Shown here piece after piece: positions 12,318-52,764 of a stretch of DNA of 64,000 nt (positions within the stretch are counted from its first letter, which is position 1; every line of letters begins with the position of its first letter). The translations under genes and the position numbers were made by a program. Origin of the DNA: Gemmatimonadota bacterium (GTDB taxonomy: Bacteria > Gemmatimonadota > Gemmatimonadetes > Gemmatimonadales > Gemmatimonadaceae); NCBI GenBank assembly GCA_023249305.1, contig JAHFCU010000006.1, forward strand, positions 1-64,000, written 5' to 3'. Under the pieces are notes generated by a model. It did not search any database, was not told the origin of the DNA, and saw only the letters and a program-made list of their open reading frames with translations.

Positions 12318-13097
12318 ATGCCCTACGAGTTCCTCACGGTTGAAGTCGCCGACCGCATCGCCACGGTGACAATCAACCGCCCTGACAAGCTGAACGCCCT
12401 CAACGCACGCGTCCTCGAGGAACTGGACGTCGTCTTCACGGCCTTCGCGACCGACCCGCTCGTTGCCGCCGTGATTGTCACCGGCGCCGGACGTGCATTC
12501 GTTGCGGGCGCCGACATCGCCGAAATCGCCGGTCACGATGCGGCCGGCCTCGAGCAGATGTCGGCCAAGGGACAGGCGATCTTCAACAGGATCGAACGCC
12601 TCACCAAGCCGGTCATCGCTGCCGTCAACGGCTTTGCGCTCGGCGGTGGCTGCGAACTTGCCCTCGCCTGTCATATTCGCGTGGCATCAGAGCACGCGAA
12701 GTTCGGCCTGCCCGAGGTGAAGCTCGGTTTGATGCCGGGCTATGGCGGCACGCAGCGCCTGCCGCGCCTCGTGGGCAAGGGGCGGGCGCTGCGGCTCATC
12801 CTGAGCGGCGAGCAGATTGATGCCACTGAGGCGTATCGCATCGGCCTCGTGGACGTCCTGGCAACGGCGAAGACCCTGCACGAGGAAGCGAAGTCCCTCG
12901 CGCTGCAGTTCGCGAAGAACGGACCCGTCGCCGTGGCGCGCACCATCGAGGCGGTGAATGACGGCTTCGACCGGCTCGCCGACGACGCATTGGCGCTCGA
13001 GGCGCGGCTATTCGGCTCGCTGGGGTCGACCAAGGACATGGCCGAGGGAACGGCGGCGTTTCTCGCCAAGCGCCCCGCGCAGTTTACGGGCGAGTAA
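12318..13097 (+). CDS. Enoyl-CoA hydratase / crotonase-family protein
   Basis: 259 residues from ATG 12318 (MPYEFLTVEVADRIA). It has the crotonase fold: oxyanion-hole segments AFVAGADIAEI and ALGGGCELALAC, and both general acid/base Glu residues, in GGGCELA and GLPEVKLG. This pattern fits hydration of short- or medium-chain enoyl-CoA (FadB-like or Crt-like). The acyl-CoA ligase at 30239 is far away, so no beta-oxidation operon is implied. It is divergent from mtnA and immediately precedes recF. Confidence 0.92.
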   Translation: MPYEFLTVEVADRIATVTINRPDKLNALNARVLEELDVVFTAFATDPLVAAVIVTGAGRAFVAGADIAEIAGHDAAGLEQMSAKGQAIFNRIERLTKPVIAAVNGFALGGGCELALACHIRVASEHAKFGLPEVKLGLMPGYGGTQRLPRLVGKGRALRLILSGEQIDATEAYRIGLVDVLATAKTLHEEAKSLALQFAKNGPVAVARTIEAVNDGFDRLADDALALEARLFGSLGSTKDMAEGTAAFLAKRPAQFTGE

Positions 13098-13098
13098 G

Positions 13099-14373
13099 GT
13101 GAAGGCCAGGCGCGCGACCAGCGCGACGGCGCCCGCCACGGCGCCCACCACGGCGCCCACCACGGCGCCCACCACGGCGCCCACCACGGCGCCCACCACG
13201 GCGCCCACCACGGCGACCGTAGATGTGCCCGGCATCGCGTTCGACGTGACGGCGCCGGATCACGGTCGTACGCGCGTCGCCGAGTTCACCGTGCGCGACT
13301 TCCGCAACCTCGCGCAAGTTGACGTAACGCTGCCCAGCGAGGGAATCGCGCTCGTCGGAGAGAACGGCCAAGGGAAGACGAGTTTCCTCGAAGCGCTCGC
13401 CTACGTGGAGCAACTCCGGTCGGTGCGCGGCGCGCGCGACCGCGACCTCGTGCGGTTCGACCAGCCGGCCTTTCACGTGCATGCGACTGTGCACGGCCCC
13501 GACGGCGTGCGGCGCCTCGGCGCGGGCGCCGACCGCGCCGGGCGCAAGAAGGTCACGCGCGACGGAGTGGAATTGCCGCGCATCACCGACGCGCTCGGCG
13601 CGCTCCCGTCAGTGCTGCTCGCGCCGCGCGACGTCACCCTTGTCAGCGACGGTCCCGCCGAGCGCCGCCGGTTCCTCGACATCACCCTGGCGCTCACGTC
13701 GCCGCGCTACCTGCGCGCTCTGCGCCACTATCGCGCGGCACTCGACCGGCGCAATGCCGCATTGCGCGACGCGGCCCGCCACCGGCGCGGGACGGACGGG
13801 GTGGCGGCGTGGGAGCCCGCGCTGGCCGAGCACGGTGCTGTGCTGGTGGCAGAACGGCGCGCATGGGTGCGGCACCACGCGGACGAGTTCACGCGGCTGT
13901 CGTATGCCATCGGAGAACCCGGGGAGTCCGCGATGGCGTACGCGACGCCGCTGCCGACCGAGGGCAATGGCGAAGCCGCGCTGCGCGATGCTTTCGAGCG
14001 CGCGCGGGAGCATGACCTCCGGCGCGGCAGCACGCACGCCGGTCCGCACCGCGACGACCTCGCGTTGACGCTCGACGGCCGTGACTTGCGCGTCGTCGGC
14101 TCGGCTGGCCAGCAGCGCACGGGGGCGATCGCGCTTCGATTGCTCGAAGCGGCGACGCTCCGCGAGCGGCGAGAGACGCTCCCCGTCCTGCTGCTCGACG
14201 ACCCGTTCGCCGAACTCGACAACCGCCGCGCTGCGCGGGTGCTCGACCTTTTGCTTGAGGCCGGCGTCGGACAGGTCGTGCTGTGCGTGCCGCGCCGCGA
14301 GGAGATTCCGGATCGCTTCACGCGCCTCTCACGCTATCGAATCGCTGATGGTGCGCTGTCGGAGGGTGAATGA
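13099..14373 (+). CDS. recF: DNA replication and repair protein RecF
   Basis: RecF is an SMC-like ATPase that loads RecA at gapped DNA. The core runs from EFTVRDFRNLAQVDV, with Walker A GENGQGKTS, through LLAPRDVTLVSDGPAERRRF, signature-like VGSAGQQRTGA and Walker B LLLDDPFAELD. From GTG 13099 it is 424 residues, but the first 40 or so are Ala-Pro-Thr-Thr repeats encoded by a 12-bp tandem array, which no RecF needs. GTG 13225 or 13246 would remove them. DUF721 overlaps the stop by ATGA and gyrB follows, as in the classical dnaA-dnaN-recF-gyrB block, but dnaA and dnaN are absent upstream. Confidence 0.93.
   Translation: MKARRATSATAPATAPTTAPTTAPTTAPTTAPTTAPTTATVDVPGIAFDVTAPDHGRTRVAEFTVRDFRNLAQVDVTLPSEGIALVGENGQGKTSFLEALAYVEQLRSVRGARDRDLVRFDQPAFHVHATVHGPDGVRRLGAGADRAGRKKVTRDGVELPRITDALGALPSVLLAPRDVTLVSDGPAERRRFLDITLALTSPRYLRALRHYRAALDRRNAALRDAARHRRGTDGVAAWEPALAEHGAVLVAERRAWVRHHADEFTRLSYAIGEPGESAMAYATPLPTEGNGEAALRDAFERAREHDLRRGSTHAGPHRDDLALTLDGRDLRVVGSAGQQRTGAIALRLLEAATLRERRETLPVLLLDDPFAELDNRRAARVLDLLLEAGVGQVVLCVPRREEIPDRFTRLSRYRIADGALSEGE
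13129..13212 (+). repeat. 12-bp minisatellite at the 5' end of recF
   Basis: Six exact copies of GCGCCCACCACG (13141-13212) are preceded by one copy with a single change (13129-13140). In the recF frame each unit reads Ala-Pro-Thr-Thr. The unit is a multiple of three, so changes in copy number would not break the frame. Confidence 0.97.
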
Positions 14374-14678
14374 GCGAGCGGCGACGCGGCCCCGCGAAAG
14401 TCGGCGAAGCACTGGCCGATCTCCTGGCCGGCAGTGCGCTTGGCGCGCGCATCGCGCGCGCGGAGGTGCTGGGATACTGGGCGAGCGCCGTTGGGCCTCA
14501 GATCGCTGCGGTAACGCAGGCGCGGGCTATCGCCGAGAATGGCACGCTGACCGTTGGTGTAAGGACGCACGCGTGGCTCCAGGAACTCTCGCTAATGGAG
14601 CGCTCGCTGGTCGAGAAAGTGAACAAACAGACCGGAAAGAGCGTGGTGAAGAAGATTCGCTGGGAGCTTCTTCGCTAA
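14370..14678 (+). CDS. DUF721 protein (DciA-like)
   Basis: 102 residues starting at ATG 14370, overlapping recF by ATGA. It has the DUF721 pattern: a helical N-terminus, then VLGYWASAVGPQIAAVTQAR, LTVGVRTHAWLQELSLM and the C-terminal VVKKIRWEL. Some members of this family (DciA) act as loaders of the replicative helicase in bacteria lacking DnaC. Its place between recF and gyrB supports a replication-linked role. Confidence 0.88.
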   Translation: MSERRRGPAKVGEALADLLAGSALGARIARAEVLGYWASAVGPQIAAVTQARAIAENGTLTVGVRTHAWLQELSLMERSLVEKVNKQTGKSVVKKIRWELLR

Positions 14679-39797: not shown

Positions 39798-39840
39798 GGG
39801 GCGCGGGCGCAGAGTGGAGAAATCTACGCGCGGGAGTGCG

Positions 39841-39900
39841 GCGGCGCAGGGCGGCGCAGGGCGGCGCAGGGCGGCGCAGGGCGGCGCAGGGCGGCGCAGG
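39841..39900. repeat. 10-bp tandem repeat, six exact copies
   Basis: GCGGCGCAGG is repeated six times without change from 39841 to 39900, between the divergent sbcD and lipoprotein genes, 44 bases upstream of the sbcD start. Confidence 0.97.
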
Positions 39901-39903
39901 GCG

Positions 39904-39945
39904 GCGGAACGGCAGACGGTAGACGGTGGACGATAGACGGTAGGC
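39904..39945. repeat. AGACGGT-type short repeats
   Basis: Units AGACGGT, AGACGGTGG and a diverged ATAGACGGT follow the 10-bp array. They match the units seen at 6425-6455 and, on the other strand, at 61956-61988, and are not part of a coding frame I accept. Confidence 0.75.
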
Positions 39946-40958: not shown

Positions 40959-41060
40959 CAACAGAGAACAACTGAGCAGAACAGAGAACAACAGAGGGGC
41001 GCTGATTGTCGAAGCGCCCCTCGCCTGTTGTCTCTCTGTTCTACTCTGTTCTACTCTGTT
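40959..41060. terminator. Long imperfect inverted repeat of AACAGAG units between convergent genes
   Basis: The whole gap between two stop codons is an inverted repeat. The core stem is GAGGGGCGC (40994-41002) with GCGCCCCTC (41014-41022), nine perfect pairs around an 11-base loop. It extends outward through ACAACA/TGTTGT and repeated ACAGAGAACA against TGTTCTACTCTG units for about 45 bases per arm. A related element lies at 52638-52764. Confidence 0.85.
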
Positions 41061-41339
41061 TCACTCTACTCCGATGTTGAACGCCTGCTCGACGTCCTGC
41101 TTTGAGTAGGCCCGGAATGCGGTGAGCGTCATGGTGCGCTGAAGCCCCGGCACCTTGGGGAACTCTTCCGTGACAACGTGGGCGATCTCGTCGTACTCGC
41201 CAACCTTGATGATGCACACGAGATCCCACTCGCCCGACACGGAGTAGACGTCGGTGACTCCCGCGATGCCGGCGAGCGCCGCGGCGCAATTCGGTATCAG
41301 CGCTGGTTCGGCCCGAACGAGAACGATGGTCGTGATCAT
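41061..41339 (-). CDS. Stand-alone Lrp/AsnC ligand-binding (RAM) domain protein
   Basis: 92 residues equal to the C-terminal ligand-binding domain of Lrp/AsnC regulators, without the HTH. It starts MITTIVLVRAEPALI and contains VYSVSGEWDLVCIIKVGEYDE and FPKVPGLQRTMTLTAF. Such proteins assemble into rings and bind amino acids. It lies just downstream of an aspartate-aminotransferase-type gene in the same orientation, so an amino-acid sensing role is plausible. Confidence 0.9.
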   Translation of the reverse strand: MITTIVLVRAEPALIPNCAAALAGIAGVTDVYSVSGEWDLVCIIKVGEYDEIAHVVTEEFPKVPGLQRTMTLTAFRAYSKQDVEQAFNIGVE

Positions 41340-42589: not shown

Positions 42590-44227
42590 ATGAGGTGCCG
42601 GCTCGGAATTCGAGAGCCGGAATCCGATGCAATTGGTTACGTTACAGGGTGCGACGAAGTTAGCGTCACGCTGGCGCTGACGCCATTGACAATCGAGGAT
42701 GCAGTGAGCGCGTTAGAACCCACTGGCAGCGCCGGCCGCAGCACGTCCGTTGCCCATTTCATCGCCCCGCATTGGGGACGCATCGCCGATCGGCTCGCGC
42801 CGATCATTGACCGCAACGGAGACGGTGAAGGCGGCGAGCCCGGCGCTTCGCCGGCCACGCTCATCTTCGTACCCGACACGGGGGCCGCCGTCGAGCTCGC
42901 CGCCGCGCTGCGCAGCGCGCGCGGCGGCATCGCGCGCATCCTTCCCGTCACCGACGCACTGCGCGCCGCGCGCGTGCTCAAGACGTACGGCGCACCGATC
43001 CTCATCGCGACTCCGGCGGACACCGAGCGGCTCCTCAAGGCGTCGGCGCTGCCGCTCGACGGCGTGCAATCCGTCGCCCTGGTCGCCGCCGACGAGTTCG
43101 ACGCCGACCAACTGGCGCACGTCATGTCGTCCGTGCCCAAGGATGCGCGCCGCATGCTCATCGCCTCCGAGGCGACGCCCGTCGTCGAGCTGCTGCTCGA
43201 GCGCTACTTCCACAAGGCGCATCGCCTGGCCGACGACGACGCGGGCGACACCGCGCCGGCGCCGGTGCAGTATCTGTGCGTGCGCGGTAGCAGCGCCGCG
43301 GCAGCCATCCCCGCCCTGCTCGACGATCTCGATCCGCCCTCGGCGGCGATCGTCACGACGGACGACGATGCAGTGCACGCGGCGCTCGTCGAGCGCGGAT
43401 ATCCCGCCGACGCGCCCATGGTGCAAGTCACCGATGGAACGGCGCCGCAGAACGTCGCGCTGGTCGTGTTCGTGGGGTTGCCGTCGAGCGCGGCCTTCGA
43501 GGCCGCGATGGCCTCGCAGCCTGGCCGCGCGATCGCACTGATCGCGCCACGTCAGCTCGCGGCGCTGCGCCGCCTGGCTGGCAGCGCGGGCGTGACGCCG
43601 TACACCACTCGGCGTGCCACGAGCGCGGCGAGGGCGCACGAGGAGCGGGTGCGAAGCGAACTCAAGGCCGTGCTCGCCGCGTCGTACCCGGCGCGGGAGA
43701 TCCTCGCGCTCGAGCCAATGCTCGCGGAGTACGACGGCGTAGAGTTGGCGGGTGCGGCGCTGCGGCTGCTCGAGATCGCACGCGTCGCCGCGGCGCCGAG
43801 CGTGCCGGCGACCGCTGCGTCGGCGGCGGGAGGGATGGCGGAACGCGCGCCGAGGTCCGCGCCGCGCGCCGACCGGCCGCCGCGCGCCGACTTTCCGCTG
43901 CGCGACCCCGTGGAACGCGCGAAGCCGCGCTTCGTGGACCGCACGATCCGCCGCGACCGCGACGATCGCCCGCCGCGGCGCGGGGCAGGTGCGGGTGATC
44001 GCGACGCCCGGCCGCGCCGGAGTTTTGGCGACAAGCCGCGCTCATTCGGCGACAAGCCGCGCTCATTCGGCGACAAGCCGCGCTCATTCGGCGACAAGCC
44101 GCGCGCGTTCGGTGATAAGCCACGTTCGTTCGGCGACAAGCCGCGCGGTGGCGCGGGCGACAAGCGTGGCAGCTTCCGTGACAAGCCGCGGGGCGGAGGC
44201 CCGCGCCGGCCGCGGGGTGAACCGTGA
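42590..44227 (+). CDS. Degenerate DEAD-box-helicase-like protein with FGDKPRS-repeat tail
   Basis: Up to 545 residues. ATG 42590 is the first start, but TTG 42686 or GTG 42701 would match the first conserved-looking block (TIEDAVSALEPTG). Two RecA-like halves are suggested. ILIATPADTERLLKA resembles motif Ib, VALVAADEFDADQL sits where DEAD should be, and LIASEAT sits where SAT should be. No Walker A GxGKT exists. REILALEPMLAEYDGVELAGAAL matches the region after the second domain of DEAD-box proteins. The tail is Arg/Gly-rich with six RSFGDKP units. It is probably an RNA-binding helicase relative without ATPase activity. It overlaps tdk by GTGA. Confidence 0.72.
   Translation: MRCRLGIREPESDAIGYVTGCDEVSVTLALTPLTIEDAVSALEPTGSAGRSTSVAHFIAPHWGRIADRLAPIIDRNGDGEGGEPGASPATLIFVPDTGAAVELAAALRSARGGIARILPVTDALRAARVLKTYGAPILIATPADTERLLKASALPLDGVQSVALVAADEFDADQLAHVMSSVPKDARRMLIASEATPVVELLLERYFHKAHRLADDDAGDTAPAPVQYLCVRGSSAAAAIPALLDDLDPPSAAIVTTDDDAVHAALVERGYPADAPMVQVTDGTAPQNVALVVFVGLPSSAAFEAAMASQPGRAIALIAPRQLAALRRLAGSAGVTPYTTRRATSAARAHEERVRSELKAVLAASYPAREILALEPMLAEYDGVELAGAALRLLEIARVAAAPSVPATAASAAGGMAERAPRSAPRADRPPRADFPLRDPVERAKPRFVDRTIRRDRDDRPPRRGAGAGDRDARPRRSFGDKPRSFGDKPRSFGDKPRSFGDKPRAFGDKPRSFGDKPRGGAGDKRGSFRDKPRGGGPRRPRGEP
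44018..44143 (+). repeat. 21-bp coding repeat, six copies
   Basis: Six in-frame units of 21 bases encode R-S/A-F-G-D-K-P. Units two to four are nearly identical in DNA sequence, and the fifth and sixth have diverged. They form the basic tail of the DEAD-box-like protein. Confidence 0.93.
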
Positions 44228-52637: not shown

Positions 52638-52764
52638 CTGCGCAGAGAACAACAGAGAACACAGAACACAATAGAGTGAAACAGACAGGGGTCCGGAGCC
52701 ATCGCCCCGGACCTCTGTTGTCTTCTGTTCGACTCCGTTGTTCTCTGTTGTTCTCTGTTGCCCG
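52638..52764. terminator. Long imperfect inverted repeat of AACAACAGAG units between gcvH and gcvP
   Basis: It fills the whole gap between the two stop codons. The core is GGTCCGG (52690-52696) with CCGGACC (52707-52713) around a ten-base loop. The flanks are repeated AGAGAACAACAGAG units on the left and CTCTGTTGTTCTCTGTTG on the right, about 50 bases per arm, imperfectly complementary. It has the same composition as the element at 40959-41060, but with a different core stem. Confidence 0.85.

Follow-up and report, generated by a model that had tools for sequence, protein, structure and literature searches.

The recF gene of a Gemmatimonadota bacterium opens with a tandem array of 12-bp units. 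We think it likely that this array is a recent in-frame expansion within a translated, weakly constrained and disordered N-terminal tail of RecF, with the start codon at GTG 13099 and with no specific function. The window, that is, the whole stretch of 64,000 nucleotides analysed here, is contig C60 of a metagenome assembly of 2.51 Mb, which comprises 83 contigs and is 78.6% complete. Read directly, the stretch 13129-13212 consists of one variant unit GCGCCCGCCACG, then six identical units GCGCCCACCACG, and is followed by GCGACC; in the RecF frame these seven copies of four codons give APAT(APTT)6. An earlier note on this DNA had described seven 12-bp copies in frame at the start of recF, which holds, more precisely as six identical copies and one variant. 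The features of the locus are listed in Table 1.

Table 1. Features of the recF locus, in coordinates of the window
Feature	Position	Strand	Basis
Enoyl-CoA hydratase/isomerase gene on the 5' side of recF, with its stop at 13095-13097	12318..13097	+	ECH_1, E 7.5e-66 for 12321-13097; ATG 12318 picked by a home-made gene caller
recF, probable start GTG 13099, one base past the hydratase stop	13099..14373	+	Open frame, TIGR00611, junction starts in relatives
Predicted disordered N-terminal RecF leader, residues 1-56	13099..13266	+	AlphaFold pLDDT
Seven 12-bp units, GCGCCCGCCACG and six of GCGCCCACCACG, APAT(APTT)6	13129..13212	+	Direct read, TRF, translation
Alternative GTG start, 3' of the repeats	13225..13227	+	Direct read; anti-Shine-Dalgarno energy -2.1
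Alternative GTG start in GACGTGACGGCG, context repeated at the apparent start of congener G004	13246..13248	+	Direct read; anti-Shine-Dalgarno energy -1.7
dciA, 4-base overlap with the end of recF	14370..14678	+	DciA, E 4.3e-19

Judged by its sequence, the gene is a true RecF, as the earlier note had it. The frame is open over 12958-14373, and from GTG 13099 it runs to the stop ending at 14373. The translation scores 289.9 bits against TIGR00611, whose curated equivalog cut-off is 172, with residues 62-396 aligned to positions 3-338 of the 339 in the model. It contains GENGQGKTS, SAGQQR and LLLDDPFAELD, which we take to be the Walker A, signature and Walker B motifs, and many of their residues are invariant among 56 aligned rows. 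The gene order is hydratase, recF, dciA and gyrB. Among the best 80 of 137 confirmed loci, nine public loci match the RecF of the window at 81-89% identity.

Tandem Repeats Finder (TRF) delimits the array as 13126-13215, with a period of 12, 7.5 copies, 98% matches and a score of 173. When the 64-kb window was dinucleotide-shuffled 60 times, the best score was 84, and chance is therefore a poor explanation of the array. It ranks second by TRF score in the window, after 44027-44146 with a score of 191. The period is divisible by three and the frame is open throughout, as in coding in-frame tandem repeats of the aaTR kind. Elsewhere in the same genome (G000:C43), a 37-bp stretch is 86% identical to part of the array. 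When folded as DNA, the array has a z of -1.92, with 7 of 200 shuffles equally stable, and the hydratase-recF junction folded as RNA has a z of -1.78, with 8 of 200 shuffles equally stable; a structural role was set aside, the stability being only slightly above that of shuffles and too weak to argue it. The whole window gave no tRNA in a tRNA scan and no Rfam match at gathering thresholds.

Where does the translation of RecF start? Comparison of relatives points very probably to GTG 13099. For this comparison the best 80 of 137 confirmed loci were kept. In total, 103 loci were loaded, of which 12 were set aside (window copies, fragments and unrelated hits); L099-L101 (no hydratase hit, contig end) and L056 (no anchor motif) were also dropped, leaving 87 loci, 77 of them distinct, and three of the latter were left out for spacers longer than 210 nt, which gives 74 distinct loci with the window included. 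The hydratase gene lies upstream of recF in 88 of the 91 loci that remain once copies and fragments are dropped, the other three being cut off at this point by a contig end. At -3 to +4 of the hydratase stop, 48 of the 74 distinct loci have an open start codon in frame, 22 of them at -3, that is, with a four-base overlap, although related loci are not independent and such counts are inflated by relatedness. Within the same interval of the 74 loci, 49 start codons are in the RecF frame, versus 4 and 6 in the other two frames. For 23 of the 48 loci the junction start is the only start in the RecF frame before the conserved RN, and the pattern extends to RecFs of about 52% identity. Among the congeners, the junction start is kept in seven of 10, two have an ATG at +8 with short leaders, and G004 has a GTG at +82; L033, L043 and L041, which the tree places as outgroups to the genus, also have a junction start. 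Furthermore, the leaders of 46 relatives have a GC content that varies periodically with codon position when read in the RecF frame (0.789/0.671/0.821), and the gap between the third and second positions was matched by none of 20,000 random-frame trials; inside the array itself, the frame cannot be told from composition.

Then, could the array be a non-coding spacer, with RecF starting 3' of it at GTG 13225 or 13246? With such a downstream start, changes in copy number would only move the recF start nearer to or farther from the hydratase stop. We consider this rather unlikely, although several observations speak for it: both GTG codons named by the earlier note are present, 26 of the 74 distinct loci have no in-frame start at -3 to +4, known RecFs begin close to the domain, and G004 apparently starts at +82, its junction GTG being out of frame, in a context around GACGTGACGGCG that the window shares at 13246. 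The in-frame junction starts in the congeners, outgroups and wider loci counted above, the only RecF-frame start in 23 of them, argue against the spacer, as does the finding, described below, that all three leader arrays have periods divisible by three. Neither downstream GTG has a recognisable Shine-Dalgarno sequence (Table 1), which is a weak test here. At 13099 the energy is -3.4, the same as the median over called starts, and it decides nothing since it hardly differs from that of random places (-3.1); Shine-Dalgarno pairing was accordingly discarded as a start test, being uninformative in the genus. As a separate observation, G004 has an extra base beside the hydratase stop (L012:1395-1560), which puts the junction GTG out of the RecF frame, and at its apparent recF start, about 80 nt downstream, the anti-Shine-Dalgarno pairing is stronger (-6.8).

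Given the in-frame junction starts of the relatives, the leader with its repeats is probably translated, and an annotation of RecF here should probably place the start upstream of the repeats. Against a repeat-bearing leader, the earlier note would have set a start mapped downstream together with repeats absent from all relatives. The 12-bp array was indeed not found in the recF of any of the 10 congeners, whereas for the start the comparative evidence favours translation through the repeats.

Read from GTG 13099, the leader is VKARRATSAT-APAT-(APTT)6-..., about 56 residues that span KARRATSATAPATAPTT. The structure was predicted with AlphaFold from an alignment (A1) of 56 of the 77 distinct loci, in which the row of L013 was entered by hand, beginning six codons before its apparent start. 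The model has a mean pLDDT of 90.1 and a pTM of 0.84; the block means of pLDDT are 42-49 over residues 1-50 and 79 over residues 51-60, and residue 57 is the first in a strand. In alignments to solved RecF chains, the match opens at query residue 56-61 and chain residue 2-12, and part of those few preceding residues may be tag. The statement of the earlier note that RecF normally begins at its ATPase domain is borne out, since the solved chains and TIGR00611 both begin within a few residues of it, so that the Ala-Pro-Thr-Thr leader is an addition. With a start at 13099 the ATPase domain is not at the N-terminus, whereas with a start at 13246 it nearly is. The low pLDDT over residues 1-50 and the point at which the solved chains begin to align place the repeats in a predicted disordered tail outside the known fold.

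The leader varies widely among relatives. Two repeat units, searched with no more than two mismatches in 179 genomes of the family, matched in 14, including that of the window, and the only match in another congener (G002:C12) lies away from its recF (G002:C21). Two congeners carry different in-frame arrays at the same position of the leader: in G008 the unit is GCCGGCATC, of 9 bp in 5.6 copies (Ala-Ser-Pro), and in G001 it is a 24-bp unit in 2.6 copies. All three periods (12, 9 and 24) are divisible by three. In a tree of hydratase and RecF, with 4 of the 11 inner branches open, the three carriers fall on different branches, and the array of G001 is missing from its well-supported sister, G003. 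The leader before RN measures 10 to 68 codons across the 48 loci that have a junction start, that of the window being the longest, and it is only about 15 codons in the congeners L007, L009 and L010, as well as in L012 if this starts at +82. The arrays of two further congeners among the 10 would suggest a hot spot in this leader; the claim was dropped because the array density of the genus is high and the arrays themselves lengthen leaders.

The earlier note had seen in the copy number a means to lengthen or shorten the leader. A length dial, or contingency locus, by which the copy number would tune the activity, amount or partners of RecF, appears very improbable to us. The unit keeps the frame and is nearly perfect, different in-frame arrays have arisen in this leader in two congeners, and the number of in-frame repeats in E. 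coli tolA has measured effects (PMC3477136). However, the length and sequence of the leader vary widely and freely among relatives, some of which manage with the leaders of about 15 codons given above, and similar arrays occur near many gene ends of the genus, so that a reason specific to RecF is unnecessary. A special role for the copy number is unsupported.

Assembly errors are known to arise at repeats (PMC6868369), and the genome of the window is both fragmented and incomplete. That the copy number is an artefact of this metagenome contig is nevertheless hardly credible, as the outer units of the array are not identical to the central ones and, in two congeners, arrays built from other units occupy the corresponding position. 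An array of 84-90 bp is, moreover, shorter than common short reads.

How unusual is such an array in the genus? Arrays with a TRF score of at least 75 were surveyed in 850.9 kb, made up of 41 stretches from seven genomes of the genus, including the window. Genes were called by a simple home-made codon-usage script, and some N-terminal cases hinge on its choice of start. Of the 71 arrays, 22 are coding and 49 intergenic. The period is a multiple of three in 21 of the 22 coding arrays versus 15 of the 49 intergenic ones (Fisher p 2.3e-7); in a smaller first survey of 464 kb, which is contained in the larger one, the figures were 12 of 13 and 11 of 34. The one coding array that departs from the rule has a period of 26. 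In addition, 17 of the 22 coding arrays are located no more than 35 codons from a predicted gene end, a zone that holds 20% of the codons (binomial p 1.2e-8), and seven of the 17 are at C-terminal ends, independent of the choice of start; the other five lie mid-gene. The coding arrays are not all independent, since several look like one gene family, with a GDKPR-type tail, across genomes. The array density is 8.3 per 100 kb in the genus, about three times the 2.9 sampled in other genera of its family (699 kb), while for arrays scoring at least 150 it is 1.5 versus 1.3 per 100 kb. There are 13 arrays of this strength class in the 850.9 kb, that of recF among them, and the recF array is therefore a strong but normal case for the genus. 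Our reading is that repeats arise often in this genus, and that those in genes nearly all keep the frame and mostly lie in tolerant tails.

Some other arrays may be described here. Arrays based on ACAACAGAG, with a unit of about 11 bp, occur in the window at 52643-52760 and at L119:16739-16876, L123:16085-16170, L124:3716-3837 and L140:13511-13587, where they come after stop codons and are oriented along the gene. Among intergenic clusters of ACAACAGAG in one orientation, 22 of 25 are no more than 35 bp past the stop of a same-strand gene; all five clusters with both orientations lie between convergent genes, as inverted arrays, convergent gaps being 49 of 325 gaps longer than 60 bp. In the genus, ACAACAGAG thus has the look of a terminator-like repeat at 3' ends. 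The array at 40959-41067 of the window resembles a ACAACAGAG array in the TRF output, and only one copy of the motif was counted in it. At 44027-44146 the window has a 21-bp array of 5.7 copies (SFGDKPR) near the C-terminus of the ORF 42590-44227, whose product has no Pfam match at 0.001 and a weak resemblance to the CshA helicase, far below the cut-off. Units similar in appearance, with periods of 45, 21 and 72, are found at C-terminal ends in G002, G001 and G009. Finally, a perfect 10-bp array of 6.7 copies, GGCGGCGCAG, is located at 39840-39906, in an intergenic region according to the home-made gene caller.

The in-frame expansion that we prefer would have come about as follows. A 12-bp unit would have expanded by slippage or unequal recombination, and recently, we infer, because the units are identical. 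Translation would begin at GTG 13099, in probable coupling with the 3' end of the hydratase gene; ribosomes starting here would translate the repeats, and RecF would gain about 56 residues before its ATPase domain. Units of four codons could be gained or lost with no change of frame, while genic arrays with periods not divisible by three would mostly be removed by selection, and the leader repeats would serve no specific function. According to the title of a 1997 paper, tandem-repeat deletion in uvrD mutants of E. coli involves the RecF pathway. One may imagine a feedback loop, in which a change of the recF repeat would remodel the leader of a protein that itself has a part in changing repeats, so that repeat stability could drift or be tuned in the genus; we give this idea almost no credence. 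The locus does not point to a new DNA repair mechanism. Its interest is rather as a compact case of repeats making new disordered protein tails, with three unrelated in-frame arrays in one RecF leader of three species, in a genus where almost every array in the sampled genes follows the multiple-of-three rule and most such arrays lie near gene ends. Among the papers listed on RecF N-terminal extensions, RecF minisatellites and Gemmatimonadetes tandem repeats, no title or abstract opening describes such an array.

Among known systems, the family score, the motifs and the confidently predicted domain are those of RecF (TIGR00611; PDB 5z67, 5z68, 5z69, 8a8j, 5zwu and 2o5v), while, unlike the proteins in these structures, the present one would have about 56 more N-terminal residues, with (APTT)6. 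Like the tract of E. coli tolA, the array is a coding repeat whose copy number can change with no frameshift (PMC3477136). However, for tolA that paper describes measured variation within a population, RecA-dependent contraction and phenotypes, whereas the recF array, which lies in a terminal leader, is described here from its sequence; by analogy, an adaptive role as for tolA is possible in principle, and nothing here asks for it. The multiple-of-three rule seen in the genus is already published for Borg elements: according to PMC9879509, all ORF repeats there have unit lengths divisible by three, versus 14-38% of the intergenic ones. These aaTRs are of recent and independent origin, with different repeats possible in homologous proteins, and they commonly make disordered regions, always N-terminal in one family. 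Here, in contrast, the case concerns a bacterial chromosome, a housekeeping protein of DNA repair and GC-rich units, together with a genus-wide survey by a simpler method.
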